The position numbers and the translations under genes were made by a program. Under the pieces are notes generated by a model. It was not told the origin of the DNA and made no database searches. It worked only from the letters and a program-made list of their open reading frames with translations. This document shows, piece after piece, positions 6,001 through 61,900 of a stretch of DNA of 64,000 nucleotides. Every line of letters begins with the position of its first letter. The stretch's first letter is position 1. This DNA is from Sorex araneus (lineage: Eukaryota > Chordata > Mammalia > Eulipotyphla > Soricidae): the NCBI RefSeq assembly GCF_027595985.1, contig NC_073312.1, forward strand, positions 8,448,673 through 8,512,672. The letters run 5' to 3'.

Positions 6001-9000
6001 AGCACAGGAGTAGGCCATGTGCCTTGCACATGTCTCACCCAGGTTTGATCCCCAGCACCCCATATGGTCCCCCGAGCACCACCAGGAGGAATTCCTGGGT
6101 GAAGAGCCAGGAATGAACCCTGAGCATCGCCGGGTGTCGCCCAAGGCGGCAGGGGTGGGAGGAAGTACAAAAAAAGTTTCAGTTCATTCACAGTTGTGGC
6201 CTGTTATCTTTGGATTGTTCATTACTGCTCTAGGCTGTTTTGTGGGTCTGTGTTTGGAGGCTGGGGCCCAGGGAACCCTTAGTTTGTTACAAACTGTACG
6301 TGTTCGGTCCAACTGGGGTTTACAGCAAACTTGACTCCATGAATCAAAGCTGCATGCACGCAGCGACCTGGCCAGGCCCTCCTAGCTGGGCTCTAGGGGG
6401 CACCCACAGGAGGGGGTGCCCTCGGCGGCTCTCTGGCCTTCCTCGAGGCTGCTCGCTGCATTGCCAGTGAAGCCGCTTTGCCTGTGCTGGTTGATGTGGG
6501 GTGGGGGGGGCATCTGCAGAGACCCTGGCGGAGACGGGAGGGGATTCCATGTCTGACGCCAGCGCCACCCCCGTGTTTGTGTGACTGTGGGAGAGACAAG
6601 AGCTGCCGCCTGCCTGGCGCGGGCCCCGGGCGGTGCAGGGATGCAGGGATGCACCTGGTCCCGGCCCACCGCCCACACCCCTCCCCCACCAGGCCGTGAA
6701 GGACACGGCGACGTCCAGGGTGCTGCTCTTCGGGACCTCGGCGCTCATCCCCGAAGTCTTCTCCGTCTTCTTGAAAAAGTGAGTGGTTGGGGCTGGAGCG
6801 ATAGCACAGCGGGTAGGGCGTTTGCCTTGCACGCAGCCGACCCGGGTTCAAATCCCAGCATCCCATATGGTCTCCTGCGCACCGCCAGGGGTGATTCCTG
6901 AGTGCATGAGCCAGGAGTGACCTCTGTGCATTGCTGGGTGTGACTCAAAAAGCAAAAAAAAAAAAAAAGTGAGTGGTAGCTGGCGCGAGGGTGCACCGGG
7001 AGGGCGCTTGCCTGCCCGCGGCCGACCCAGGCTCGATCCCCAGAGCCCCAGACGGTCCGTGGAGGCCAGCAGGCGTGATTTCTGAGCGCAGAGCACCGCT
7101 GGGTGTGGCCCCTACACAAACAAGAAGGTCTTCCCTTGGCCCGAGGCCCCCCGGGGGAGGAGGCCACCGAGTCCAGCTGGTGGCCCCGTGTCCTGCTTGG
7201 CAGTCTGGGGACCCACGGGGACGCCACGGCTGGTGTCCAGGGAGCAGCAGAGCCAAAGGCACCCACTGTCCCTTCCGTGGCTGCTCACTGGGCGGGACGC
7301 TGCTGCCAGCCCGCAAGGGGAGAGAAGCTGCTCACTGCCCGCTGCCCTAGGGCCCCGGGGGTGACCCACGGGGTGTCCCCCAACCCTGTCACTCAACCCT
7401 GTCATCGTCCTGTGGCTAACAGCCCAGGAAGGGACTCCTGCTCCTGTCTGCAATTCTTGGCATCTCCCCACCACAGGGGTCAGATCTCTGACCCAGGGCC
7501 CATGGTCAGAGGTCAAGGTTACGGTCAGAGGTCAAGGTCACATCACTGCCCAGAATAAGGCCCAGCTGCCTGCGGTGGCCTAGCCTGGGAGCCCTGGGGT
7601 ACAGGGTGAGCTACTTGGTGAGAGTGACTGCCGCCTCCGGTGTGGGCCCAGGGGGTGACGAGTCTCCTAGGGGCGGGGCTGGGAGAGGAGGCCCCACGCG
7701 TGCTCCCCACCGGGTGCTGGGGGTGAGTGTTCCCGGGGTGCCCGCAGGGGTCCCTCAGGGCTGGCCGCTGCCCCTCCAGGTCGCAGATCTTCGTGCGGTT
7801 CCCGTGGTCGCTGTGGCCCCTGAAGCTGTCGTGCACGGTGCTGGTGCTGGGGCTGATGGTGCCGCTGTCCTTCAGCATGTACCCGCAGATCGGACAGGTG
7901 AGGCCCCGCCCGCCTCCCCCCTCCCCCTCTCCCCTCCCCTCTCCCCCAGGACCAGAGCCCGAGGTTTCCTTCCCGTAAACCTGTAACAGCGGGAAGCGAG
8001 AGCAGGTGAAGGTAGTTACCCCTGTTCGATCCCCGGCAATCCATCTGGTCCCCTGAGCCCCGCCAGGTGTGGCCCCCAGAACCAAATTAAATTAAAACTA
8101 TTTAGTGATATTCAAGGTGTTTTCTGGGCTGGAGCGATAGCACAGCGGGTAGGGCGTTTGCCTTGCATGTGGCCGACCCAGGTTCGATTCCTCCGCCCCT
8201 CTCGGAGAGCCTGGCAAGATACCGAGAGTATCCCACCCGCACAGCAGAGCCTGGCAAGCTCCCCGTGGCGTATTCAATATGCCAAACACAGTAACAACAA
8301 GTCTCACAATGGACACGTTACTGGTGCCTGTTCGAGCAAATCGATGAGGAACGGGATGACAGTGACAGTGATTCAAGGTGTTTTATAATGTCCTGTAGGG
8401 ATGCCCTGTCCAGCAGTTCTTTCTCTATGGCAGTGTTCTAGAACTTTCTGTCATGTTTGGGAGCTGCTAGCCACTGTCGCCATCAAACCCATGAACCGTG
8501 GCCCCGATTTCATGCCGAGGGTCTCAGTCGGAATGCATACCCCAACATTCAGTCCTTGGGGACCACACTGTAAACCGGGCCCCCGGGGCTGACCACCAAG
8601 ACGCAGGGAGGGGAGTGCCCGGCTGGATGGGGGACAGGATCTCAGAGGCCAGAGTGGAGCAGGAAATGGAGTTCAGGATTGCTTGGGGGCTCGAACCCAG
8701 AGCCACGCACCCCACTCCCTGGAGCCTCCTCCATCCACCCCCCCCCCCAGCCCAGCAGGTTTGGCGTTTGCTGGATCTTGAACTTACGTCCGAGGTGGGC
8801 TTGGCAGGGAGGGGCCGCATGGGGGTCTGCACGGGTGAGGCGCCACCTCCCCACTTTGCCTGGGGCGGTGAGCGAGGGGTCGGCTCTGTGAGGAGGCTTT
8901 CCCAGGGCTGTCCGGCCTGCCCGTCCCCGCACCCAGAGACCCTCGTTTGTTTACGGGACAGTGGCACTGGCGTTCCAGGCGGGATATTGAGCAGTGTCAG

Positions 9001-14201: not shown

Positions 14202-17200
14202 CTTTAAGAGAGCAGGAGAATGGGCTCTGTCGGTCTCGGTTTGAACCATTTACAGGTGATTAGACTAACTCTATGCATTAAGAAATAGGGGCTGGAGCAA
14301 TAGCACAGCGGGTAGGGCGTTTGCCTTGCACGCGGCCGACCCGGGTTCGATTCCCAGCATCCCATAGGGTCCCCTGAGCACCACCAGGAGTAATCCTGAG
14401 TGCATGAGCCAGGAGTAACCCCTGTGCATCACCAGGTGTGACCCGAAAAGCAAAAAAAAAAAAAAGAAAAAAGAAAAAAAGAAATAGGGGCCAGAGGGGG
14501 GACTGGAGCAATAGTTCAGCGGGTAGGGCATTGTACGCGGCCGACCCAGGTTCGATTCCCAGCATCCCATATGGCCTCCTGAGCACCACCAGGGGTGATT
14601 CCTGAGTGCAGAGCCAGGAATAACTCCTGTGCATTGCCGGGTGTGACCCAAAAAGCAAAAAAAAAAAAAAAAAAAAAAAAAGAAGAAACTGGGGCCGGAG
14701 AGATAGTATAGCGAGCAGGGCAGCCTTGCATGCTGATGACCAGGTTCCATCCCATATGGTCCCCAGGCCCCTGAGCACAGAGCCGGGAGTCAGCCCCGAG
14801 TACTCTGCATGCTGCAGGTGTGGCCCGAGCACAAAACAAACGGGGGTTGGAGCCAAGCACAGAAGGGAGGGCACTGCCTTGCGCGCAGCTGACCCGGCCG
14901 GATCCCCTGCATCCCCCAGATGGTCCTGCGAGGGGGCCGGAGCAACAGTACCCCAGATGGGCCTGCGAATCTGCCAGGAGTGATCCCCGAGCACAGAGCC
15001 AAGAGTAAGTCCCGAGCACTGGGTGTGACCCAGAAACCAAAACTAAACCAAATAATAATAAAAAAGGAAACAGGGATTGGAGCGATAGCACAGCGGGGAG
15101 GGCGTTTGCCTTGCACGCGGCCGACCCGGGTTCGATTCCCAGCATCCCATATGGTCCCCAGGGCACCACCAGGAGTAATTCCTGAGTGCAGAGCCAGGAA
15201 TAATCCTGTGCATTGCCAGGTGTGACCCAAAAAGCAAAAAAAAAAAAAAAAAAAAAAGGAAGCATAAGAAACGGGCCCGGGGGACCTGCAGAGCCAGCTG
15301 AGGCCTAAGCTGGGCCTCCTGTCTCTACCCCACGCTGCGGGGTGGTGCTGCCACTGGGTCCCCAGCGCCTAAGTGTGCGTCTCCGGCTCACGGCGCCCAG
15401 TGCATGAGCACCACAACCAAGCTGTGGGCCTGGACACACAATGACAAGGAAGAGAAGCGGGCAGAGTGTGAGAGAAACACAACAAACCCACATTCCCGAC
15501 ACGGGCTAAAGAGAAGCCAGAGAGAATGGACACGGGCCGTGGGACAGTCCAGCGCGCAGGCCCCTGCCTCGCCCTGCGGGCAGCCGGGACCCGTGGGGTG
15601 GCGTGTACTCTGAGCTCCTGCGCCCTCGGGCTCGATCCCGGTACCCCGCAGGGTCCCCCCGAGCACGGCCAGAAGCGATCCCGAGTACTGCTGGGTGTGG
15701 CCCCCACACCAAATCCAAACCTCACATAGTGCCGCATTCATTCCCACAGAAAGCGCGGCCCGAGGGAGGCCTGGTCCTGGAGCGGCACGGCGGGCCCAGA
15801 CAGACACGGGCGGACGGGAAGCTGTGGCTCAGTCTCCCCGGGTCGCCGTGGGCCACGCGGCACCTCTCCCAGATCTCCCACCGTGCTCTGCCGCCCTCTG
15901 TCCCCACGGGCACATGGCGAGCCCCGGGTACCTGGATGACTTCGCCGTCGGATTTCTCCGGGTCCTCGGCGGACTCCACGATGAACTGCCCGACCTCTCT
16001 GTGCAGCTTGCCCATGGTCATGGCCTCTGGGGGGTGGAAGAACAGGCTGTGTGAACAGTCGGGAACTTGGAGCAGGCCGTGACAGAGGGAACGACCCCGA
16101 AGCCGGTGGCACCACGCCCACGTCACCGTCTTACTCCCGAACTCGGAGCCGGCAGAGCTAGGGAAGGGGGGCGAGGGGGAAGGAGAGCCCGAAGGCGCCC
16201 GGCGCTCTGCTCTCACCTTTGGCGGGAGGCGCGACGGAGATCTCGCGGTCTGCGAGGTTCACGAACACGTCGTAGAGGTCTGATCGGCGGCTCACCTCGG
16301 GGTCCACAAAGCCGGCCACGTAGCCTACGCGGGACACGGACACCCGGCGTGGGTTGGGAGAGAGCGAGGCTGGGCCGCAGCCCCCGACCACGGTCTACCC
16401 TGCTCAGCTGACCAGGGCAGGTGCTGCGCCCCCAGAAATAACCACCCCCCCCAACTCCATGCGTTCCCAGAGCAGACTCAAGCACCCGGCAGGAGGCTGC
16501 GGGAAAGTGTTTCCGTCGCGGTTCCTGCCCTCCGGGCCCAAGAGACGGGCTGTGGGAGCCGGAGGGATTCTTCCCTTCTGTCGGTGTGGGGGCCATGCCC
16601 GCGCTGCTCAGATGAGCTGCTGGGGACGGGACCCTGGTAGGTCGAGTGCAAGGCAGGCGCCCTGAGCCCCATGGCTATCTCTCCAGCCCGTTACGGAGAC
16701 TTCCGGATGGGACCTTCCCCAGCTGAACACGAGCTGCTGAGTGAGGGACCCGGCAGGCAGGCTGGAGCCCGGCTGGAGGGGCAGAGCCTGGGCCTGATCC
16801 CCCCAGCACTCTGGGAGTGACCACTGAGCGCTGAGCACTGAGCTGGGAACAGCCCCCGAGCACCGCCAGGTGTGGCCCCTGAACACCAAAATAACTTGCA
16901 ACTGGGGTTGGGGCACCAGTGCGAGAGCCCAGGCCTCACACACAGCAGGCCCTGGCCCTGTCCCAGGCAGCGCGCCAGGCAGAGCCCTGCTACCCCCAAA
17001 CACCGCAGGCCCCGAGCACTGTCCGACATGAGCATCTCAGGGGAGGTCCTCGCTGCTCCCACCCCCAAAAGGAAGAACATTTTAAGAGTCGCGGTAGCTC
17101 AGTGGAAGAATACTTGGCAAAGAATTTGTTGGCCAAAGAAATAAGGAATGCTCAGAACTGCCCTTTAGAGTTTGTGCACGCACACACACAAACATGCATA

Positions 17201-18531: not shown

Positions 18532-21500
18532 GATAGCACAGCAGGCAGGGCTCTTTCCTTGCATGCGGCCGCCCCGGGTTCAATCCCCGGCATCCGACAT
18601 GGTCTCCCGAGCACTGCCAGGAGTAACCCCTGAGCACTGCTGGGTGTGACCCAAAAGGGGGACAAGGATGACACAGTGTCACTGAGACCCCCATTGAACT
18701 CCAGGTGGTGGCTTAGCTGTGGGCTGTCACTTTGGACTTTCCAGCAAGAGAAGAGCAGGGAGTTGAGGGGCCCCAGTTAAGGCCCTTGCCTCGAGTGCGG
18801 CTGACCCGGGTTCCACCCAGGGAATCCCACGGTCTGCTAAGCACTGCAGAGAGCGGCCTCAAATCAGTCAGGGGCCGTCCCCTCAGCACAGAGCCAGGAG
18901 TAGCCCCCAAGCACCGCCGGCATGGCTCAATTGGCCCACCGCGCCCCGCCCCACTCAGGGAAAAAGAAAGAGAAGTGGGTCGGGAGCTTGAGCTCTGCAG
19001 AAGGAAGCGACTGCCCAGGTCTCAGGAGACCGACACTGTGGAAATCAGAGGGGAGAGTGCTGGATTTATATGAGGCCGACCCGGGTTCGATCCCCCACAC
19101 CCCATAGGGCACCCTGAGCACTTCCAGGAGAGATTCCTGAGTGCAGAGGTGGGAGTAAGCCCTGAGCTCTGCCAGTGTGACCCCAGATGCTCAAAAATTA
19201 ACTAAAAATTAGTGAAACCAAAAATTAATCTAGGGGCTGGAGCGATAGCACAGCGGGTAGGGCGTTTGCCTTGCATGCGGCCGACCCGAGTTTTATTCCC
19301 AGCATCCCATATGGTCCCCTGAGCACCACCAGGGGTAATTCCTGAGCAAGTGCAGAGCCAGGAGTAACCCCTGTGCATCGCCAGGTGTGACCCAAAAAGA
19401 AAAAAAAAATTAATTAAAAAGAGCATCAGTGGCTGATGCAGTTAACTCCCCTCCCTCCTGCCCGCCCCGGAAAGCAGTTTTCCCGAGATGCAAAGAACCT
19501 GTGGGAAGACGCTGCTGGGGGCTGGGGCGGGGCGGGGCTGGGCGGGCTGGGGAATGGTGCTTAGGGGCTCAGTTCTCCTCCCTGCCAGCGCCTGGCTCAC
19601 CTTTGACGGAGCCTGCCAGGTAGGCCTTGCGGGCGGAGAAGTCCTTGCTGAGGAAAGAGCCGTTCTCCTCACTCTGGCAGGCGCCCTTGGTGAGCACGGC
19701 GATGTAGCTCTCCATCATCCGCACCGGGGTCCCGTGCTTCACATACATCCTGCAGGGACAGGAGGCCGAGCGCTCGCCTTTCGCCGGAGCCCGGAGCCCG
19801 GAGCCCGGAGCGCAGGGGAGAGACGCGCGGGCAGAGCTGGGGCCCGACGGGAGGGCCTGAGCCCGGGTCTGTGCGTGACAGGACGGCCTGTACTGTGGGT
19901 GGGGACAGCGTTCACAGCACGGCAAAGCAGCCTTGAGAGTGGGCCGGAGCAAGAGCCCAGCGGGGAGGGCGTCTGCCTTGCAGGCGGCCGACCCAGATTT
20001 GATTCCCGGCATCCCATAGGGTCCCCCGAGCACCTTCGGGAGTAACCCCTATGCACCGCCGGGTGTGACCCCAAAGTCAAACAAACAAAAAAAGCCTCGA
20101 GAGACCCGTGGAACGGCTCTCTGAGTTGGCCCCCGGGTGACTCTGGGGGGCCCCGTCATGCTCCCGGCCGCTGTCCACTGGGCCGCTGACGCCTGACGCG
20201 CACTAGCAGCATACTGTCGTGACAACTGCCGTGGTCCCGGGGAAGGAGCGAATCAGGTGTCGGCCCCCACTCAGCCCCGGAGCCCCCAGAGGATGCTGCA
20301 CTTGGGTCATTAAGAAATCCAACTCCTTCCCTTTCTGGCGGTAAGTTCCCTCTTGACGGCCCCCTCTGCCCCTCCCTGAGAGCCCCTTCCTGTGAGTAAC
20401 TGAATCCAAATTGTGCTCAAGAAGCACAACTGGGTCTTTCGGTAGCTGATGGGATAGAAAACTGGGAAGTAAATAAAAATCATTACTTACAGATTACCCA
20501 ATGTTTATGGCAGAGCCTGGCAAGCTCCCTGTGGCGTGTTTGATGTGCCAAAAACAGTAACAAGTCTCACAATGGAGACGTTACTGGTGCCCGCTCGAGC
20601 AAATCGATGAGCAACGGGATGACAGTGATACAGTGATACTCAATGCTTACATTTAGTATAGGTAAGTGGAGGGAAAGCCAATATTTTTACCTATATCCCA
20701 GTCATCAATGATTTTTTTTGTTGGTTTGTTTTTGGGTCACACCTGGCAGTGCTTGGAGCCCTGGGAACCCTCTGAGGTACTGGAGGTGAAGCCCGGGCCA
20801 GCGGCGTGCAAGGCCAGTGCCCTACTACTGTCCTACCTCCCCAGTCTTTTTTTTTTTTTTTTTTTTTGCCTTTTGGGTCACACCCAGCGATGCTCAGGCG
20901 TTACTCCTGGCTTTGCACTCAGGAATTACCCCTGGCGGTGCTTGGGGGACCATATGGGATGCCAGGGATCGAACCTGGGTCGGCCGCGTGCAAGGCAAAC
21001 GCCCTCCCCGCTGTGCTAGCTCCGGCCCCTACCTCCCCAGTCTTATCTGTTTTCACTATTTCAATGCACAGATTGAACAATAAGTGTGAAAGCAAATATG
21101 TAAGGCAGGAGTCAAACCCATAAACCCAGTCGCGTGCCTCTCTGGGCGGGTCCAAAGAAAACAGTCCCCAGAGCCCTGGCGACTGGTGACCCAAAAGGTG
21201 GGAGCCTGGGAATGAGGGGGACGGGGGACCGGACCGCATCCCCTTCCCTAGCACCTGCCTTTCCCCTCCGTGCTCACATCAGCACCAGCAACGGCAACTG
21301 AAAAGCCGGACAGAGGCCGGAGGGCTGAGCACCTGCTCACGTGCCAGGAGCCTCACATTTGAGCCCAGCAACGTCGGGTCCCTGGAGCCCCCCTCCCCCC
21401 ACCGGAACCCCCAAACAAACCAAAGGTAGCAAAATAGAAACATTCTCTGGTGCCAGAGATGAGACAAAGATTGGGGGGAAGGGATGGGGACCGACAATCG

Positions 21501-24500: not shown

Positions 24501-27081
24501 GCTTTTTTCCTTGCACCTTCGGACTCAGGTTCAATCCCTGGCATCCCACGTGGTCTCCCAAGGCCTGCCAGGAGTGACTCCTGAGTGCAGCGCCAGAAGT
24601 AAACCCTGAGCATTGCCAACTGCAGCCCAAAAACAAAAAACAAAACAAAAAAATTAAAAAAGAAGAAGAAAAAAAGAAACAAAAAGAAATGAGGGACTGA
24701 AGAAAAGAGAGAGCACAGTGGGTAGGGTGCCTGCTTTGCACAGCACTGACTGGGTTCAAACCCTGGCATGTTACATGGATTCCCCCAAGCCCTGCCAGGC
24801 ATGATCCCTGAGCACAGACCCAGGAGTAAGCCCTGACCACCACCATGTGTGGCCCCCAAAGCAAGAGTTAAGAGAAATGCTATTTAGGGGCTGGAGCAAT
24901 AGCACAGCAGTTAGGGTGTTTGCCTTGCACGCGGCCGACCTGGGTTCGAATCCCAGCATCCCATATGGTCCCCTAGCACCGCCAGGGGTAATTCCTGAGT
25001 GCAAAGCCAGGAGTAACCCCTGAGCATCGCCGGGTGTGACCCAAAAAGCAAAAAAAAAAAGAGAAATGCTATTTACAAAAAAATAAAAATAATTAACTTT
25101 TTAAAAAAGAGAGAAATGCTCTTATTTAAACATTTGGGATTGGGGACAGGGGACACCCACCCCACTCCGTGCCAGGAGTGAAACCCACCCTGGGCTTCCT
25201 GCATGCCCGGCACACGCCCAGCCCTGGGTACCCCCTCCCTGCCCCACGAAAGCACGGCCGGCCCCTGGCCCCTCTGCTGCCTTACCTTTTTCAGAACTGA
25301 AGAATCCGGCACCTCGGCTGTGGTGATGTAAAACCACATTCGGCGGTACTGACCGAAGACGAAGGGGTGGAGGAGCTTGCTCTCGTCCGTCAGGCAGCAT
25401 TTCCTCAGCAGCAGGGCCCGCTTGCTCGCGGTGGTGGACGGGTAGCACCAGGCCCACAGAACTTCCCCGTTCGTGTCCTTTTCTACGGTGGAAAGATGGT
25501 CACTGAGAATGTCAAACAGCAGCAAGGACGTGAATTGATTCAGAAGCACGGCAGGGAGTCAGTCCTCACACCCCACTTGACCAAGCAACCCGAAGCAGGG
25601 GAGATGCCCACCTACCTCTCCTGGCCCCAGGATCTAGCTCTCAGGATCAAGGCTTAGGTGCCCCGAGTAAAAAGCTTTACAACCCAGCCTGAATGACATG
25701 TTGACCTTCCACCTTTGACACGTCTTCCCTCTAAATTCTCAGAAGCTTATCATTTCATTATTTATTTTTGGTTTGGGGGCCACACCCAGCCACACTCAGG
25801 GCTCACTCCTGGCTCCGCGCTCAGGAATCATTCCTGGCGGTACACGGGGGACCATACGGGATTCTGGGGATCGAGCCCAGGCCAGCCAAGCACCCACTGT
25901 ACTATCATCTCTCCAGCCCCCACATCCTTTTTTAATTTAATCTGGTTGGGAAGATCTTTTACAATTACATCGAGGATTTATTTTTAAAATTAAAAGAAAA
26001 AACTGGTGTTGAGGGCAAGCAAGATGGGCTGCAGCAAGAATGGGCTAGAGGATTTGCCTGCACGTGTCCTGGGTTCGACCCCCAGCACTACATGGTCCCT
26101 CCCCCGACCCCCGAGGCCCCAGCACTGAGCAGGAAGGGACCTGCAGCAAAAATCTGGGGCTGGGGCGGAGCTAGTACACAAATTAAGCACTTGCCTTACC
26201 TGCCGCAGACCTGGGTTCCATCCTCCCCACCCCCACTGCGGTCCCCCAAGTTCGACCAGAAATGATCCCGGAGCAGGGAGCAAGCCCCGAGAACCGATAG
26301 GTGTGGTTCCAAAGCCAAATTACTGGTGTCTGCTCGAGCAAAATAATTAATAATAATAATAATAATAAAAGTCTTTAGAAAAAGAGCAGCACGCTTTGCC
26401 ACTTTGCGCTACTTTGCTCAACTCTACGTGACGGTGCACAGAGCTCAGGGGGTCTAAGGAGGTGGTTCGAGGGATACCCCGCCAGTTGCAGAGCACATTC
26501 TCCCAGGTCTACACTGCCCGGGACGTGGGCAGCGGCTGCCCAAAGGTCCGGGCGTAACTTGCGGGGACCCTCATTCCCCTAACCCAGCCCGGAGCCCCCG
26601 AAGGCCACTGTGCAGACGGCCCTGCCGCACGGAGACGCGGAGCAGGACGCGACCCTCACTCGGCGCCCTCCAGGCGTGCAGCCCGCGCGCCCCCGGGGCC
26701 TCCACCTGCTCCTCCGCCCGGGGCGGCCCCCGCGGTCACGCGGCTCCCCGCACGCTCCGGGGGGACCCGGGCGCGGCCCCCGGCCCGGCCCCGCCTGCGC
26801 CCCGCTCCGCGGCCGTCAGGGGCCGCCCAGGGCGCGCCCGGCCGCACGTGCGAGTCCGCGGCGGGGCCGGGGCGCGGGCCGAGCCCCTGCACCGGGTGGC
26901 CGGACCCCGCCGCCCCGGCCCGGGCCCAGCGTGGAGGGGGCCGCGGGAAGCGCCGGGGACGGCGGGGCAGGGCGAGCCCCGGGCCCGGGCCGAGGTGGAG
27001 CGGACGGGGGGCGCCCGGGTCCTCACCGATCAGCCCGACTCCGAGCATCAGCTGCGGGTCCGCCGCCTCGGCCGCAGCCAT
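14025..27081 (-). CDS. DENND10: DENND10 (FAM45A), complete coding region in nine exons
   Basis: Nine exons sum to 1074 bp (357 residues plus stop), the length I recall for the human protein. The product aligns from [18 protein letters not shown] to the end [15 protein letters not shown], and every junction phase closes. It is a compact DENN-domain protein. From published work, DENND10 sits on late endosomes, has been linked to Rab27, and co-purifies with the Commander complex. No frameshift, stop or missing exon is seen, so the gene looks intact. The ATG is the first in the exon and lies in a CpG island. It converges with SFXN4 and diverges from EIF3A, as in human. Most SINEs within it are antisense to it. 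Introns carry the B-type SINE at 20511 and many A-type copies. Confidence 0.96.
14288..14682 (+). mobile_element. Two young A-type SINEs (14288-14480, 14500-14682)
   Basis: Both have long A-rich tails. The second has lost part of the box region (GGGCATTGTACGCGGCC). GAAATAGG repeats beside the first mark a short target duplication. Confidence 0.92.
14691..15050 (+). mobile_element. Two diverged A-type SINEs, the second with a repeated head
   Basis: The first is at 14691-14840. In the second (14842-15050) a new GGGGGCCGGAGCAACAGTAC head appears at about 14932 after the box region, suggesting partial duplication or two fused copies. Confidence 0.7.
15073..15256 (+). mobile_element. A-type SINE, full length
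   Basis: Head GGGATTGGAGCGATAGCAC, intact B box GGTTCGATTCC and a 22-base-class A tail. Confidence 0.93.
15530..15722 (+). mobile_element. Diverged A-type SINE
   Basis: Recognised from GGGCTCGATCCCGGTACCCC and TACTGCTGGGTGTGGCCCCC. Confidence 0.6.
15932..16026 (-). CDS. DENND10: DENND10 exon 8
   Basis: The exon reads [20 protein letters not shown] then [12 protein letters not shown] in phase 0. The acceptor is CCCCCCAG and the donor GTACCC. Confidence 0.95.
16217..16324 (-). CDS. DENND10: DENND10 exon 7
   Basis: The exon reads [20 protein letters not shown] then [16 protein letters not shown] plus one base. The acceptor is CCCGCGTAG and the donor GTGAGA. Confidence 0.95.
16582..16690 (-). 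mobile_element. Diverged A-type SINE fragment, inverted
   Basis: It reads GGGGGCCATGCCCGCGCTGC to ATCTCTCCAGCCC with the middle deleted. Confidence 0.55.
16768..16894 (+). mobile_element. Diverged A-type SINE fragment
   Basis: The paired GAGCACTGAGC motifs and ACCGCCAGGTGTGGCCCCTG support it; the head is lost. Sequence to 17075 may hold another very old copy. Confidence 0.5.
17176..17262 (+). repeat. Imperfect (CA)n array at the exon 6 donor
   Basis: CA/CACATG repeats with ATGCA interruptions reach the first base of the DENND10 exon 6 donor. Confidence 0.93.
17262..17362 (-). CDS. DENND10: DENND10 exon 6
   Basis: The exon reads [20 protein letters not shown] then [13 protein letters not shown] plus one base. 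The donor GTATGTGTGTG runs straight into a CA/TG array. Confidence 0.95.
17863..17974 (-). CDS. DENND10: DENND10 exon 5
   Basis: The exon reads [20 protein letters not shown] then [17 protein letters not shown] plus two bases. The acceptor TATTTTAAG has few pyrimidines and the donor GTCTGG is weak. Confidence 0.93.
18043..18192 (-). mobile_element. Diverged A-type SINE, inverted
   Basis: TTTTGGACCACATCTGGTGG is at the tail side and TCTCTCTGGCCCC at the head. Confidence 0.75.
18319..18668 (+). mobile_element. A-type SINE (18335-18529) nested in an older A-type SINE
   Basis: AGTGATAGCACAGCAG occurs at 18319-18334 and again right after the A tail near 18529. This is the head of an older SINE that continues from there to about 18668. 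The duplicated target is therefore SINE sequence itself. Confidence 0.93.
18758..19198 (+). mobile_element. Two diverged A-type SINEs (18758-18930, 19050-19198)
   Basis: Clear GTGCGGCTGACCCGGGTTC and GAGGCCGACCCGGGTTCGAT box regions; both heads are eroded. Confidence 0.7.
19233..19409 (+). mobile_element. A-type SINE, full length
   Basis: Near consensus, with a small AGCAAGTG insertion-like change in the body. It is flanked by AAAATTAAT-type sequence on both sides. Confidence 0.93.
19601..19749 (-). CDS. DENND10: DENND10 exon 4
   Basis: The exon reads [20 protein letters not shown] and [17 protein letters not shown], ending AGSVK plus one base. The acceptor is CCTGCAG and the donor GTGAGC. 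Confidence 0.96.
19939..20093 (+). mobile_element. A-type SINE with short body
   Basis: Head, boxes and a GCCGGGTGTGACCCC end are present; about 25 bases of the body repeat are missing. Confidence 0.85.
20094..20510. other. DENND10 intron, no recognisable element
   Basis: Unique-looking intron sequence with no SINE or exon. Confidence 0.55.
20511..20640 (+). mobile_element. B-type SINE, 5'-truncated
   Basis: It starts within the body at CAGAGCCTGGCAAGCTCC and keeps the entire RTE-like end. The last part reads [19 protein letters not shown], then ACAGTGATAC. CAATG(T/C)TTA flanks suggest a target duplication. 5' truncation is typical of target-primed reverse transcription. Confidence 0.9.
20710..21043 (-). 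mobile_element. Two inverted A-type SINEs, the younger inserted at the head of the older
   Basis: The older copy is 20710-20846 and the younger 20847-21029. CCTACCTCCCCAGTCTT, the older head end, is duplicated on both sides of the younger. Confidence 0.92.
21313..21426 (+). mobile_element. Very diverged A-type SINE
   Basis: Only the GAGCACCTGCTCACGTGCC box region and a CCCCCAAACAAACC tail remain. From 21427 to 22304 no element is recognised. Confidence 0.4.
22305..22472 (+). mobile_element. Diverged A-type SINE
   Basis: Head GGGGCCGAAGGGATAGTACG, box CTTGCACATGGCACC and tail CCCAAAAGCCAAAAG. Confidence 0.82.
22543..22727 (+). mobile_element. A-type SINE, full length, with target duplication
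   Basis: AAAGTTCAGGA lies on both sides. The 3' end is C-rich (CCCCCCCTCCCC) before a short A run. Confidence 0.92.
22974..23053 (-). CDS. DENND10: DENND10 exon 3
   Basis: The exon reads [20 protein letters not shown] then FTRILC plus two bases of an Arg codon. The acceptor is TTGTGCAG; the donor GTCTGT is weak. It was found by reading the minus strand, since the exon gives no useful long ORF. Confidence 0.93.
23133..23340 (+). mobile_element. A-type SINE with an internal 30-base insertion
   Basis: An unrelated AT-rich stretch (about 23245-23280) interrupts the body. The copy sits 80 bases from exon 3. Confidence 0.75.
23638..23789 (-). mobile_element. Diverged A-type SINE, inverted
   Basis: GGGGGTCATACCTGAAAATG to CACTCCCCGGCCC. 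Confidence 0.75.
24056..24070 (-). promoter_or_regulatory. CTCF-like motif in a DENND10 intron
   Basis: On the minus strand it reads CCACAGGGGGCGCTG, a good match to the CTCF core. Confidence 0.45.
24124..24217 (+). mobile_element. Short tRNA-like SINE without the A-type body
   Basis: A head with CAGTGACAAAGCACTCGCC and a GGTTCTATTTCCC B box passes directly into an A-rich tail. It may be an older head-only SINE or an internally deleted A-type copy. Confidence 0.5.
24283..24863 (+). mobile_element. Three diverged A-type SINEs in tandem (24283-24442, 24473-24663, 24693-24863)
   Basis: All run in the same direction with CAAACAAAC- or CAAAAAACAAAA-type tails between them. Confidence 0.8.
24887..25059 (+). 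mobile_element. A-type SINE, full length, 16-base target duplication
   Basis: AGAGAAATGCTATTTA lies at 24871-24886 and 25060-25075. A related GAGAAATGCTCTTATTTA occurs once more at about 25110. Confidence 0.95.
25286..25482 (-). CDS. DENND10: DENND10 exon 2
   Basis: The acceptor ACCGTAG precedes [20 protein letters not shown]. The exon continues through [19 protein letters not shown] and ends PDSSVLKK with donor GTAAGG. It carries the start of the DENN module. Confidence 0.96.
25760..25920 (-). mobile_element. Diverged A-type SINE, inverted
   Basis: GGGGGCCACACCCAGCCACA to CTCTCCAGCCCC. Confidence 0.85.
26013..26140 (+). mobile_element. Diverged A-type SINE fragment
   Basis: GGGTTCGACCCCCAGCACTA marks the B box; the 3' body is short. 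Confidence 0.6.
26155..26345 (+). mobile_element. A-type SINE body joined to an RTE/B-type tail fragment
   Basis: A diverged A-type copy runs to about 26320. Instead of an A tail it continues TTACTGGTGTCTGCTCGAGC, the sequence found in the 3' end of B-type SINEs and the RTE copy. A (TAA)n microsatellite follows to 26369. Confidence 0.65.
27027..27081 (-). CDS. DENND10: DENND10 exon 1 (start codon)
   Basis: ATG at 27081-27079 reads [18 protein letters not shown] plus one base of a Glu codon. The donor GTGAGG follows on the minus strand. Confidence 0.95.
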
Positions 27082-30594: not shown

Positions 30595-30858
30595 AGCACT
30601 GTAGCACTGTCGTAGCACTGTTGTCCTGTCGTTCATCAATTTGCTCGAGTGAGCACCAGTAACATCTCCATAGTGAGACTCGTTGTTACTACGTTAGGCA
30701 TATCAAATACGCCACGGGTAGCTTGCCAGGCTCTGCCATGCAGGCGGGATACTCTCGGTAGCTAGCTGGGCTCTTCGAGAGGGATGGAGGAACTGAACCC
30801 GGGTCGGCCGCGTGCAAGGCAAACGCCCTACCTGCTGTGCTATCATCGCTCCAGTCCA
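30595..30858 (-). mobile_element. B-type SINE, full length, inverted
   Basis: The end repeat GTAGCACTGTAGCACTGTCG is followed by CATCAATTTGCTCGAG (the RTE-like end), the paired CTTGCCAGGCTC and the tRNA head. TATAAATATGT at 30584-30594 and 30859-30869 is the target duplication. Confidence 0.93.
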
Positions 30859-34130: not shown

Positions 34131-34509
34131 ACTTTTTATTTTTGTTTGGGATTGGCAATATTCTGGGCTTGCTCCTGGCTCTGCACTCAGGGATCACTCC
34201 TGGCAGGCTCAGGGCACCACATGGGATACCAGGAATCAAATTCAGGTGGGCAGCTTGCAAGACAAGCACCCTAATTTTTTTTAATTAAAAAAAAAGACAA
34301 GGGGCCGGAGCGATAGCACAGTGGGTAGGGAGTTTGCCTTGCACGCGGCCGCCCGGGTTCAATCCCCGGCATCCCATATGGTCCCCCAAGCACCTCCAGG
34401 AGTAATTCCTGAGTGCAAAGCCAGGAGTAACCCCTGAGCATTGCTGGGTGTGACCCCCCCCAAAAAAAAAAAGACAAGCACCCTACCCACTGTACTATCT
34501 CTCAGGTCC
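34131..34509. mobile_element. Old inverted A-type SINE split by a young plus-strand A-type SINE (34301-34472)
   Basis: The older copy is 34131-34275 and 34473-34509. AGACAAGCACCCTA is duplicated. A short TTTTAATTAAAAA stretch lies between the first duplicate and the insert. Confidence 0.88.
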
Positions 34510-35414
34510 CACAAAGTAGATGTTGAGAGGGGATGAGAGATGGAGGGTGTTAGGGAGCTCCCCCAGTCACCTAGGCAGTGCCAGGGGTTCCCCCTGTGGT
34601 GCTCAGGGCTGGTTACCTCTGGGTGGTTGGGAGGACTGGAATCAATACTTCCTCCTGCTGCCCTCCCATTTCACCACTGGGCTCACTGCTGGCTGGGCGT
34701 GGTGTGATGCGGGTCAGACCAGCCAGACTGGTTCATCAATGTGAAGGGTGAGGGCGGGAGCATTCCCAAACTTTAGCCATAGTATAGACTGCTGCTCTCT
34801 TTACAGACAGAAAGCGTGTGTGCAGATCTAAGCTGCAGTCCAACCGAGCTCATCATGGATGCAAAAGCTCACCCCATCCCCCGATTTTTCCACTCACACT
34901 CCAATTATCCTGGGGCCTCTCCTCTGTGCCTCTCCCAATGGCTTGAATGGAAAAAATCCTTCTGCTTATTTATCTCTTAAGAGAGCCTTGAGGAGGGGGT
35001 TCCCAAGACTGCCTACAGAGTCGGTGGTTAGGGGACTTGGGAGTCAGCTCGTAACTATACTTTCCTCATGGCTATGACAGATCGAACTGCAGCAACAGAC
35101 ACTCGAGGTGATGCCCAGAGGCTTCAAAGCTCCCAGTGAAGTCACAGAGGAGGTCCTTACTTTGGGGCCATGCTCTGAGGCACTGGGGGTTGGGTAAGGA
35201 AGGTTACTCCAGAGTCAGTGCTCAGGGGTCGCTCTAGGAGTGCTCAGGGGGCCACAGTGCTGGGATTATGCAGAGTATTTGCTCATCTGGTCCTAGAATG
35301 AGCTGAACTCCAGCGGATGGCAGACAGCTCCATGAGACCCTGTGACCCCCTCAAGCTCAGAAGATTCAGCCCGAAGCTCTCTCTCTCTGACTCTGTCTGT
35401 CCCGTCGGTCTTCC
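34510..35414. other. Intergenic, no recognisable element
   Basis: No SINE, exon or tandem repeat recognised. The same holds for 35561-36165. Confidence 0.5.
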
Positions 35415-36565: not shown

Positions 36566-36661
36566 TGCCTTGTGTGATTTTATATAAATCTCTGTAAAAA
36601 TAAAAACTTCTCTCTAAGATTGGTTGCCTCCGACTTTGAACTCCATTAAAAAATGTGGTGT

Positions 36662-37523
36662 GGGCTGGAGTGATAGCACAGCGGGTAGGGCTTCGCTGAT
36701 GACATCGTCCTCATAACGCCAAACATTAGCCAAGCGGCACAAATGCTGGCCGACTTCGACCGCGAGTGTGGAAAGGTCGAACTGCAGCTGAATCTCAGCA
36801 AAATAATGTTCATGAAAAACAAAATAGTTCTTGACGTTCCATTTGCTCTCAATGGAACGAACATCTCTGAATGCAGCAGCTATGCTATGTATATCTGGGT
36901 CGAGAATTCAACATGAGGAACGACTTGGCGCCAGAACTGTGCAGGAGGAAGAGAGTAGCGTGGAACGCCTTCAAAAGTGTCGAAGAAGTGGTTAAGAGGA
37001 CGAAGAACCTCTGGCTTCAGGCACATCTTTTCGATTCCATCGTTCTTCCTGCACTAACGTATGCCTCAGAGACCTGGGCCCTACGCAAACAGAATGAGAA
37101 TGTTATTTGGGTATCCCAAAGAGGAATCAAAAGAGCCATGCAAGGAGTATCACCTTTCACTCAAATGAGAGAAGGAATCCAGAGTTCCAACTTCCGTCAA
37201 TTATCAAGAATCAGGGATGCTGTCTCGTTTGCCAAGGCATCAAAAATCAGATAGGCCAGACACGTAATGCGATTCAGAGATGACCACTGAACTAGAGCTG
37301 TTACTGACTGGATTCCACGGGACGTCAAAAGACCGCGTGGCCACCCACCAACGAGGTGGGCAGACTTCTTCGTCAAAACCCTGAATGAATGGCTTGAGGC
37401 TCTTCCTGTTCCTGGAGTGAGCAGGTATCATTGGGCTACACTCACATGCGACAGGGACAAATGGAGATGTTACTGGCGCCCGCTCAAGCAAATCGAAGAT
37501 TGAAGGGATGACAAATGATACAA
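36662..37523 (+). mobile_element. RTE-clade LINE (RTE1_Sar-like), 5'-truncated and decayed, fused to a SINE head
   Basis: The first 29 bases are the A/B-type SINE head. At 36691 the sequence switches to an RTE reverse transcriptase starting at the catalytic FADD motif (FADDIVLIT). It continues through LPALTYASETWALRKQNEN, WIPRDVKRPRGHPPTRWADF and the C-terminus DKWRCYWRPLKQIED. Decay is visible as a frame shift near 36885 and two Trp codons turned to stops, at 37253-37255 and 37287-37289. The C-terminal region closely resembles RTE proteins I know from hookworm-type nematodes. A possible 6-base duplication GTGGTG flanks it at 36655-36660 and 37524-37529. The upstream endonuclease and most of the RT domain are absent, so it is not autonomous. 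Confidence 0.88.
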
Positions 37524-39249: not shown

Positions 39250-39785
39250 TGGACCAGGAGGCGGGTTCCAAACAACACTTTGCTACCCAGAGACCTGGGG
39301 CCAATCCTTAGCACCACATGAAGTTCCCTGAGCACCCCCAGGAGTGACAACCAAGCACAGAGCTGCTAGTAGCTCCCACCCTCTGCCAGGTGTGTCCCCT
39401 CTCCCTCAAAAAAGACAAATGTCGGGGCTGGAGCAATAGCACAGCGGGTAGGGCATTTGCCTTGCACGCAGCCAACCTGGGTTCGATTCCCAGCATCCCA
39501 TATGGTTCCCTGAGCACCGCCAGGAGTAATTTCTGAGTGCAGAGCCAGGAGTAATCCCTGTGCATCGCCTGGTATGACACAAAAAAAGCAAAAAAAAAAA
39601 AAAAGACAAATGTCTTGGGCTGGAGCAATTGCACAGTGGGGAGGGTACTTGTTTTACATGCAGGGATTGACCTGGGCTCAATCCCTGCAACACATATGGT
39701 CCCCTGAGTCTGCCAGGAGAGATCCCTGAGCACAGAGCCAGGAGGAAGCCCTGAGTACCACTGGTATGGTTCCCAAACTAAAAAA
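39250..39785 (+). mobile_element. Three A-type SINEs in tandem (39250-39417 old, 39424-39604 young, 39617-39785 old)
   Basis: The young copy is flanked by AAAAAAGACAAATGTC on both sides, duplicated from the end of the first copy. Confidence 0.9.
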
Positions 39786-58900: not shown

Positions 58901-61900
58901 GAGAGTTTGGAAATGAACAAAGACCTAAACTTATTCTTAAATATCTGAGAGAGAGGCACTAGGTGGTGTTTTTTTCTTTTTTAAATTTTTATTTAAATGT
59001 TTATACGCTATTGGAGCTGGAATTACCATGGCTGCTGGCACCAGACTTGCCCTCCAGTGGATCCTCATTAAAGGATTTTAAGTGGACTCTTGACAGTTAC
59101 GGGGCCTCGAAAGAGTCCTGTATTGTTATTTTTCGTCACTACCTCCCTGGGTCGGGAGTGGGTAATTTGTGCCCCTGCTGCCTGCCTTGGATGTGGTAGC
59201 TGTTTTTCAGGCTCCATCTCTGGAATTGAACCCTGATTCCCCGTCACCCGTGGTCACCATGGTAGGCACCGGGACTACCACATTGAAAGTTGATAAGGCA
59301 GACATTTGAATGGGTTGTCGCCGCCATGTGGGGGGGGGGGGCGTTGGATCGGCCCGTGGTTATCTGGTCACCGAAGCTGCCAGCGCCCACCCTGTGGCCT
59401 CCGAGGGGAGGCTGACCGGGTTGGTTTTCGGTATCCAGGCGGCTGGGGCCTGCTTGAACACTCTTAATTTTTTCAAGTGATAGAAGTGATAAGTGCTTAT
59501 GGGTCATTGCCTTGGGCCAGGAACTCATTAGGGGATTATGTGGCCTGGAGACAGCCCAGTGGCACCTGGCTTCTTCTGAGCCTACTTGGCATTTTTTTTA
59601 CTACTGAACAGATATTACTCTTTTTTGTTTTGTGTTTTTTTTTTTTTGCTTTTTGGGTCACACCCAGCAATGCTCAGGGGTTACTCCTGGCTTTGCACTC
59701 AGGAATTACTCCTGGCAGTGCTTGAGGGACCATATGGGATGCCGGGGATTGAACCCAGGTCGGCCGCATGTAAGGCAAACGCCCTACCCGCTGTGCTGTC
59801 GCTCCGGCCCAAGATATTACTTTTTTTTGAAAGTGTCTTTGCTTAGGGGCAGGCAAGGCATTTTGAGCCACACTTGCTGGGTACTTCCGCCTGTGCTTGG
59901 TAGTTACTCTGGTGTGTGCTCAGAAAACCAGGCACTGCTAAGTATTGAACCTGGACCTCCTACGTGCAGATCATGTGCTCATCTTTCTGGTCTTTTCATT
60001 CACTATCTTAACACTACAAAATAAACCTGATTGTATTGTATGTCTTTTCATACTTTTTTATTTGTGGGGTTTTGGGATATATGGGGTGCAAGAGATCTTA
60101 ATGTGGGTCTACCATGTGCAAGACAAGTTTGTTCCCCATTGTGTTATTTTTTATATATTTTTGGCTATACCCAACGTTCCTCAGGGCTTATTTCTGGCTC
60201 TGCTTAGGGACTGTATGGTGGTGTCAGAGACCCAAACTGGCGTTGGCCATATATAAGGCAAGAACCCTAATCCTGTACTCTTTCTGGCTCCTATGTTTTT
60301 ATTCTTTTTTTTTTTTTGGTGGGGGAGGGGACACCTATCGATGCACAGGGGTTAGTCCTGGCTCATGCACTCAGGAATTACTCCTGGCAGTGCTCAGGGG
60401 ACCATATGGGATGCTGGGAATTGAAGCTGGGTCAGCCGCTTGCAAGGCAAATGCCCTACCCGATATGGTATCGCTCCAACCCCTGTTTTTATTCTTAAAG
60501 CATTGAGATTTCATTAAGAGAATTAGATGTTTGCTTAGACTCCAATGATTGTGACTATAATACTATTAATTTTAGGAAGCATTCAAAGCTGTGGAAGATA
60601 TTCATGGGCTGTTCAACTTGTCTAAGAAGCCACCTAAGCCTCAGTTGATGGCCAATTACTATAATAAAGTCTCAACTGTGTTTTGGAAATCTGGAAATGC
60701 TCTTTTCCATGCCTCTACCCTTCATCGTCTTTACCATTTGTCTAGAGAAATGAGAAAGAATCTTACACAAGAAGAGATGCAAAGGTAAGAATATAGGGGT
60801 GTGGAAGTTACAACTGCTATATATACTTTTTTTTTTTTTTTTTTGGCTTTTTAGGTCACACCCGTTGATGCTCAGGGTTTACTCCTGGCTCATGCACTCA
60901 GGAATTACTCCTGGAGGTGCTCAGGGGACCATATGGGATGCTGGGAATCGAACCCAGGTCGGTCGTGTGCAAGGCAAACGCCCTATCTGCTGTGCTATTG
61001 CTCCAGCCCCACAATTGCATTTCTTTTGGGTCCAGTTAACCAGAAGTTCACTGAGAATAAAGAATTATTAGGACAAGGTGTCAAGATCTGAGCTTTGTGT
61101 CAGTGTATATAGTATTCGGGGCTGGAGCGATAGCACAGCGGTTGGGCTTTCGCCTTTCATGCGCCGACCCGTGTTCAATTCCTCCGCCCCTCTCGGAGAG
61201 CCTGGCAAGCTACCGAGAGTATCCCACCCGCACGGCAGAGCCTGGCAAGCTACCCGTGCGTATTGGATATGCCAAAAAACAGTAACAATAAGTCTCTCAA
61301 TGAGAGATGTTACTGGTGCCCGCTCGAACAAATCGATGAGCAACATGATGACAGTGATAGGGTGTTCAGTATAGTCTTAGAAATTAAGCTAGACAATTAA
61401 GAAAAATGCTTCCATAGAGGTTTTTTTTTTATGGTTATAAAATCATATACTTAGGATATTTGATACTACTTTGCATGTGGCTGTATTTACTTGGTTTTTG
61501 GCCATCCGCTCCCATACTCAAGGCTTAACTCCTGGCTCTACTTGGGGATCAGATGGTGTTGGGGACCAGATCCTGCTCAGTGTGTGCCAGATAAATGCCC
61601 TACCCACTGTACTGTTGCTGTAGCCCCAGTCCCTTTCTGCATTCACCTTTTTAGAGAATATTGGAATAGTGAGTATTAATCTGTTTAGCTGTATTTTATC
61701 CTCAGTAGCCATTGACTGCAGTGTACAAAAGCGTTCATTCTGCCATTGATTCCACAGCTAGGAAACACTGGGTGTAGTAAGTGGAAGGGTGAAGCTGTCT
61801 TTTCCCTCACTGTTCTTTTTAGCAGTGTCTTTTCTTAGTTAAGTGTGTGCTGTGATGAACGCTCTTTGCAAAGACAGTTTACCATGACGGTGTTACCGGC

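Follow-up and report, generated by a model that had tools for sequence, protein, structure and literature searches.

A low-copy shrew SINE with a Sor-type head and the 3' terminus of an RTE-clade LINE, its probable partner in mobilisation

Introduction

SINEs that carry the tail of an RTE-clade LINE are already known, among them Bov-tA, Ped-2, and the AviRTE SINEs. Mammalian examples are collected in Table 1 of PMC3747384 (Bov-tA, Ped-1, Ped-2, Afro SINEs, SINE2-1_EC, RTESINE1, and others), where Ped-2 of the springhare is given as an ID-SINE head joined to a BovB tail; the main text of that paper mentions neither "shrew" nor "Sorex". In birds, according to PMC4844689, several SINEs with tails made of 5'UTR and 3'UTR pieces arose from AviRTE, another LINE shared with nematodes. 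For the shrew Sorex araneus, PMC6542046 describes RTE1_Sar, an abundant RTE-clade LINE that was transferred horizontally between strongylid nematodes and S. araneus, with the direction from the nematodes favoured but unproven; the word "SINE" does not appear in its main text. Among the open-literature matches listed, no title or abstract opening described an RTE-tailed SINE from a shrew, although a database entry for one may exist.

The stretch of DNA analysed here (the window, 64,000 nucleotides) holds a SINE, called B-type, that resembles these systems in part. Like Bov-tA of ruminants, it is a tRNA SINE with the 3' end of an RTE-clade LINE, which in the case of BovB is thought to have been acquired horizontally; judged by their descriptions, the two SINEs differ in the tRNA head and in the LINE. 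Like Ped-2, it joins a SINE head to the 3' end of an RTE-clade LINE, but the head, the LINE, and the mammalian order are all different. The ID family that supplied the head of Ped-2 is mobilised by L1, as Sor, the SINE whose head B-type bears, appears to be. B-type itself has a body of ~115 nt that matches neither Sor nor the RTE fragment. With the AviRTE SINEs it would have in common that it parasitises an RTE passed between vertebrates and parasitic nematodes. The AviRTE tails are reported to be built of 5'UTR and 3'UTR pieces (PMC4844689), whereas in B-type the 3' piece alone was seen, some two thirds of which is coding sequence. The Sor SINE has the same tRNA-Ala-like head of ~66 nt but its own body, an A-rich tail, L1-type targets, and no RTE end. 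New here are the fusion of the 5' end of an RTE copy to ~30 nt of a Sor head and the finding of 23 nt of the shared tail lodged within the tail of an old Sor copy.

Results and discussion

The 3' ends of the B-type SINE and of the LINE are homologous

The whole sample consisted of four B-type copies and one decayed RTE copy; their coordinates are given in Table 1 with those of the other features. According to a preliminary description of the window, the B-type copies starting at 8124, 20511, 30595, and 61118 end in the 3' end of the RTE, and all four indeed matched it in blastn searches with the RTE end, over 39 to 63 nt at 80 to 88% identity (E values of 4e-13 to 1.3e-6). The best match was that of the copy at 20508-20636, with 84% over 63 nt (E value of about 1e-13). 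In local alignment, the consensus of the B-type 3' end scored 83 against the RTE, while the maximum among dinucleotide shuffles was 41 and 0 of 1000 reached 83. A profile of the four B-type bodies led to the RTE 3' end at 37460-37521 (E = 6.6e-11); ranked over the whole window, the four B-type copies were followed by this RTE end and then by 26319-26343 (E = 0.0017), with no further match up to an E value of 10. Chance similarity or convergence has in its favour the shortness of the segment (39 to 63 nt), but chance is refuted by the shuffle test, the E value points the same way, and we regard the probability left to this explanation as negligible.

The match starts at ACAATGGAGA/ACAAATGGAGA, passes the RTE stop codon, and enters the RTE tail, and the shared segment comprises ~41 bases at the end of the coding part of the RTE copy and ~20 bases after them. 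The preliminary description had called this the coding end of the RTE. Since the shared part extends ~20 nt beyond the stop, what the two elements have in common is the RTE 3' terminus and not just the coding end. The borrowing is taken to have gone from the LINE to the SINE because the upstream stretch of the LINE continues as protein with an RTE-type C-terminal motif.

The peptides previously quoted for a B-type copy and for the RTE were correct. Each of the three aligned B-type copies departs from the RTE peptide WRCYWRPLKQIED at 5 of its 13 residues, and we reject coding in the SINE on this ground. The RTE frame is open in these copies because the nucleotide identity runs through the coding part without indels; this is not evidence of coding, and the readability of the copies is passive, with no coding constraint. 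Folding of the shared end as RNA gave a z score of -2.9 in one of five single sequences and of -0.4 to 0.7 in the other four, and the consensus fold had 16 pairs, none of them with a change on both sides, that is, no compensatory pairs; we draw no conclusion on structure from these folds.

The LINE at 36689-37523 was tentatively assigned to its clade by a C-terminal motif which we take to be typical of RTE proteins. Among its three protein pieces, the 74-aa fragment matched RVT_1 of Pfam with an E value of 3.3e-5 at 24.1 bits, below the cut-off of 29.6, and the other two had no Pfam match; a PDB search with two of the three pieces gave no match. Published Soricidae-specific SINE primers (PMC8608897) served to place the DNA: the forward primer has 20 sites in the window at no more than one mismatch, and since these sites recur, the window is shrew DNA and its A-type SINE is Sor. 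The A-type profile had 134 matches in the window, including three B-type heads and the head of the fusion described below. Given that the DNA comes from a shrew and that the RTE described from Sorex, where it is abundant, is RTE1_Sar (PMC6542046), the LINE is presumed to be RTE1_Sar, which would then most likely be the partner. DNA patterns had 0 matches in viral and prokaryotic contig collections, two of the RTE protein pieces had no confirmed relative among viral contigs, and one B-type copy had no match in a plasmid collection, results that have no bearing on the distribution in animals.

Table 1. Positions of B-type, Sor, and RTE features in the window
Feature	Position	Strand	Details
5' target-site duplication ATTCAAGGTGTTTT	8110..8123	+	3' copy at 8371-8384, 14/14 identical
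B-type SINE, full length	8124..8370	+	tRNA-Ala(TGC)-like head, body, RTE-like 3' end, tail GACAGTGACAGTG
Segment homologous to the RTE 3' end, first B-type copy	8308..8361	+	79.6% over 54 nt, E 1.1e-7
B-type SINE, 5'-truncated	~20508..20636	+	tail GACAGTGATACAGTGA; flanks TACCCAATGTTTA / TACTCAATGCTTA, 11/13 identical
Segment homologous to the RTE 3' end, truncated B-type copy	20571..20632	+	84.1% over 63 aligned nt, E 4e-13
23-nt fragment of the tail shared by SINE and RTE	26320..26342	+	A-rich flanks; lies within the tail of the old Sor copy at 26156-26313
B-type SINE, full length	30595..30858	-	tail of CAGTGCTA-like units; target duplication ACATATTTATA, 11/11
First ~30 nt of a Sor-type head, fused to the RTE 5' break	36661..36691	+	96.8% over 31 nt, E 3.9e-9; profile E 2.9e-4
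RTE copy, 5'-truncated, broken	36689..37523	+	from the reverse transcriptase FADD motif to the 3' end; one frameshift, two in-frame stops
RTE 3' end common to the B-type SINE	37460..37522	+	stop TGA at 37501-37503; blastn and shuffle test
Example of an A-type (Sor) SINE	39424..39585	+	B-like head, own body, A-rich tail, target duplication AAAAAAGACAAATGTC
B-type SINE, full length	~61117..61358	+	target duplication uncertain: best flank match 8/9, not at the end of the tail

The head of B-type is that of Sor, while its body resembles neither Sor nor the RTE fragment

A B-type copy consists, in this order, of a Sor-type head, a body of ~115 nt, the RTE-like end, and a tail of short non-A repeats. 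The span 8124..8370 given earlier for the first copy proved exact, as it sits precisely between the two copies of ATTCAAGGTGTTTT. Its head was called a tRNA-Ala(TGC) by ARAGORN (8130-8201), and the B box GGTTCGATTCC is present in the copy. Over its first ~66 nt the B-type head follows a consensus built from 30 high-scoring Sor copies, also in letters that separate this consensus from that of all Sor copies; the high-scoring copies would, from their lower divergence, be the younger ones. K2P distances between heads were 0.180 within A-type, 0.151 within B-type, and 0.189 between the two. Pairs of B-type copies ranged from 0.10 to 0.22 with a mean of about 0.15, against an average of 0.18 for the 30 high-scoring Sor copies, and the distances gave no sign that B-type is older than Sor, in a comparison where the Sor set was picked by score and one of the four B-type copies is partial.

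When the B-type body was aligned locally with that of Sor, the scores fell inside the range of the shuffles. In global alignment, the score was reached by 5 to 11 of 500 shuffles if the A-rich ends were included and by 83 to 115 of 500 without them. We ascribe the low global counts to the A-rich ends and do not claim a Sor-derived body. Against the RTE fragment, the body (with the head included in the query) scored 27, which 200 of 300 shuffles reached.

The body might instead be the 5'UTR of the RTE, if B-type is a deletion derivative of that element (5'UTR plus 3' end) to which a Sor head was added. Such a derivation, suggested by analogy with the bird AviRTE SINEs, in which a head is followed by 5'UTR and 3'UTR pieces (PMC4844689), would fit a body unlike both the Sor body and the RTE 3' fragment, as well as the presence of CACAATGG, which closes the body exactly where the RTE 3' part starts. 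On the other hand, tblastn with the three RTE protein pieces found no RTE 5' end in the window. We hold this derivation to be possible but doubtful; it refines the main explanation, a Sor head joined to an RTE 3' terminus, and does not oppose it.

The consensus of the body (8190-8305) also holds an internal duplication, in which AGAGCCTGGCAAGCTACC occurs twice, 40 nt apart.

B-type and Sor insertions differ in their tails and target sites

Clear target-site duplications of 11 to 14 bp flank three of the four B-type copies, one of which is 5'-truncated; the match found for the remaining copy, at ~61117-61358, is of a quality reached by about 3.6% of random pairs. For Sor, 47 copies were examined and 32 had a scoreable duplication. 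The Sor cut sites are T-rich before the cut and A-rich after it, with A in 25, 27, 20, and 21 of the 32 at positions 1 to 4, which we take to be the pattern of the L1 endonuclease; the targets are of the TT/AAAA kind and the tails mostly A-rich. B-type copies, unlike Sor, have no A-rich 3' tail but end in short non-A units of the GACAGTGAT type, and their targets are without the TT/AAAA signature of Sor. Target duplications starting with AA were found in 21 of the 32 scored Sor copies (counted by eye) versus 0 of 4 B-type copies (Fisher p = 0.023; p = 0.056 without the uncertain B-type copy, n = 3).

The tail of the RTE copy contains one unit, GACAAATGAT, which is similar to the B-type tail units, as far as a single decayed LINE copy can tell. 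A run of at least three Ts ended 6 to 8 nt upstream of the cut in two of the three B-type sites, a small number, and a T-run ending 5 to 11 nt upstream occurs at 9.6% of random sites; all three clear B-type duplications can be read as starting with A. These T-runs and A starts resemble, in two of three sites from few copies, the Tn-TA insertion pattern of RTE-clade elements and their SINEs (PMC13295347).

Were B-type mobilised by L1 as Sor is, its RTE-like end would be a passive passenger acquired in one recombination. In favour of this, B-type took its head from an L1-type SINE, and the window abounds in Sor copies that were inserted in the L1 manner, but the missing A-tail, the targets other than TT/AAAA, and the position of the RTE end at the extreme terminus of every B-type copy all speak against L1, and we judge its involvement very unlikely. 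Mobilisation by an RTE-type partner, which the preliminary description had proposed as probable, is favoured by most of the tests made on the window and contradicted by none: in its favour are the shared 3' terminus, the lack of an A-tail, the target duplications, and the non-L1 targets, and the tail repeat and the Tn-TA pattern lean the same way in very few copies.

A Sor head is fused to the 5' break of the RTE copy

The RTE copy is directly preceded by the beginning of a Sor-type head, and the GGC at the junction (36689-36691) is assignable to either the Sor head or the RTE. Only 2 of the 89 5'-complete matches to the Sor model, a set that includes the B-type heads and the fusion head, end before model position 80, namely, the fusion and a match of 40 nt at 34510. 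The fusion looks like the product of a template switch in which reverse transcription left the RTE RNA and went on along a Sor RNA; PMC4476161 discusses template switching as an origin of LINE-tailed SINEs. Alternatively, the RTE could have inserted into a Sor copy, the downstream part of which was deleted later. In keeping with this, the duplication flanking the fusion is weak (GTGGTG, or 8/10 with mismatches; about 8.5% of random pairs score at least as high as its 6). A profile search, however, gave no Sor match between 36693 and 38403, so that no Sor remainder follows the RTE tail, and heads cut short before position 80 are as rare as stated above; we consider insertion followed by deletion unlikely.

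A further trace of the shared tail is the 23-nt fragment at 26320-26342, which has the end of an old Sor copy on one side and an AAT-rich tail on the other. Its sequence is an exact fit to a degenerate pattern for the family, for which 100 shuffles gave an expectation of 0.00 matches; the pattern was written once this match and the B-type copies had been seen.

Proposed mobilisation and origin of B-type

We think it highly probable that B-type is a low-copy composite shrew SINE, made of a Sor promoter head and an RTE-clade 3' terminus and mobilised by an RTE. Its 5' part is a promoter head derived from tRNA-Ala, of the type seen in the less diverged Sor SINEs, and RNA polymerase III is expected to transcribe the element from the A and B boxes of this head. 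Transcription would reach the RTE-like end because there is no TTTT in between, the consensus containing none. The RTE reverse transcriptase would recognise the terminus of ~60 nt and the repeat tail, and the cDNA of B-type RNA recognised in this way would be inserted by target-primed reverse transcription. The family was most likely born when reverse transcription of the RTE switched template onto Sor RNA, and the fusion of Sor head and RTE at 36661-37523 looks like an event of the same kind.

A more specific history, in which the L1-dependent Sor SINE split off a lineage that was re-tailed by a nematode-derived LINE and switched to the reverse transcriptase of this foreign element, and in which the fusion is a direct by-product of such switching, has in our estimate not quite an even chance of being correct. 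If it is, B-type would join the AviRTE SINEs of birds as a second example of SINEs that arose on a LINE linked to nematodes. Should the LINE be RTE1_Sar, its arrival in the shrew lineage sets the upper limit to the age of the SINE, and the copies would therefore serve as a dated clock of the horizontal transfer. A genome holding two SINEs with a common head but different tails and partners is a natural experiment on recognition by reverse transcriptases, and the fusion of Sor and RTE opens the origin of LINE-tailed SINEs by template switching to a direct check.

Other features of the window

A full Sor copy at 34301-34457 (+) is followed by a minus-strand Sor head of 40 nt at 34471-34510, the second unusually short head of the window. 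At 14288-14654 and at 39424-39777, one Sor copy directly follows another, and the later one begins where the A-tail or the target duplication of its neighbour lies, apparently as a result of SINEs inserting beside or into SINE tails. The minus strand at 59002-59600 matches the eukaryotic 18S rRNA family of Rfam (RF01960) with 224.7 bits over model positions 161-603, up to the edge of the searched stretch, where the match is cut off; this fragment is probably a ribosomal RNA pseudogene.
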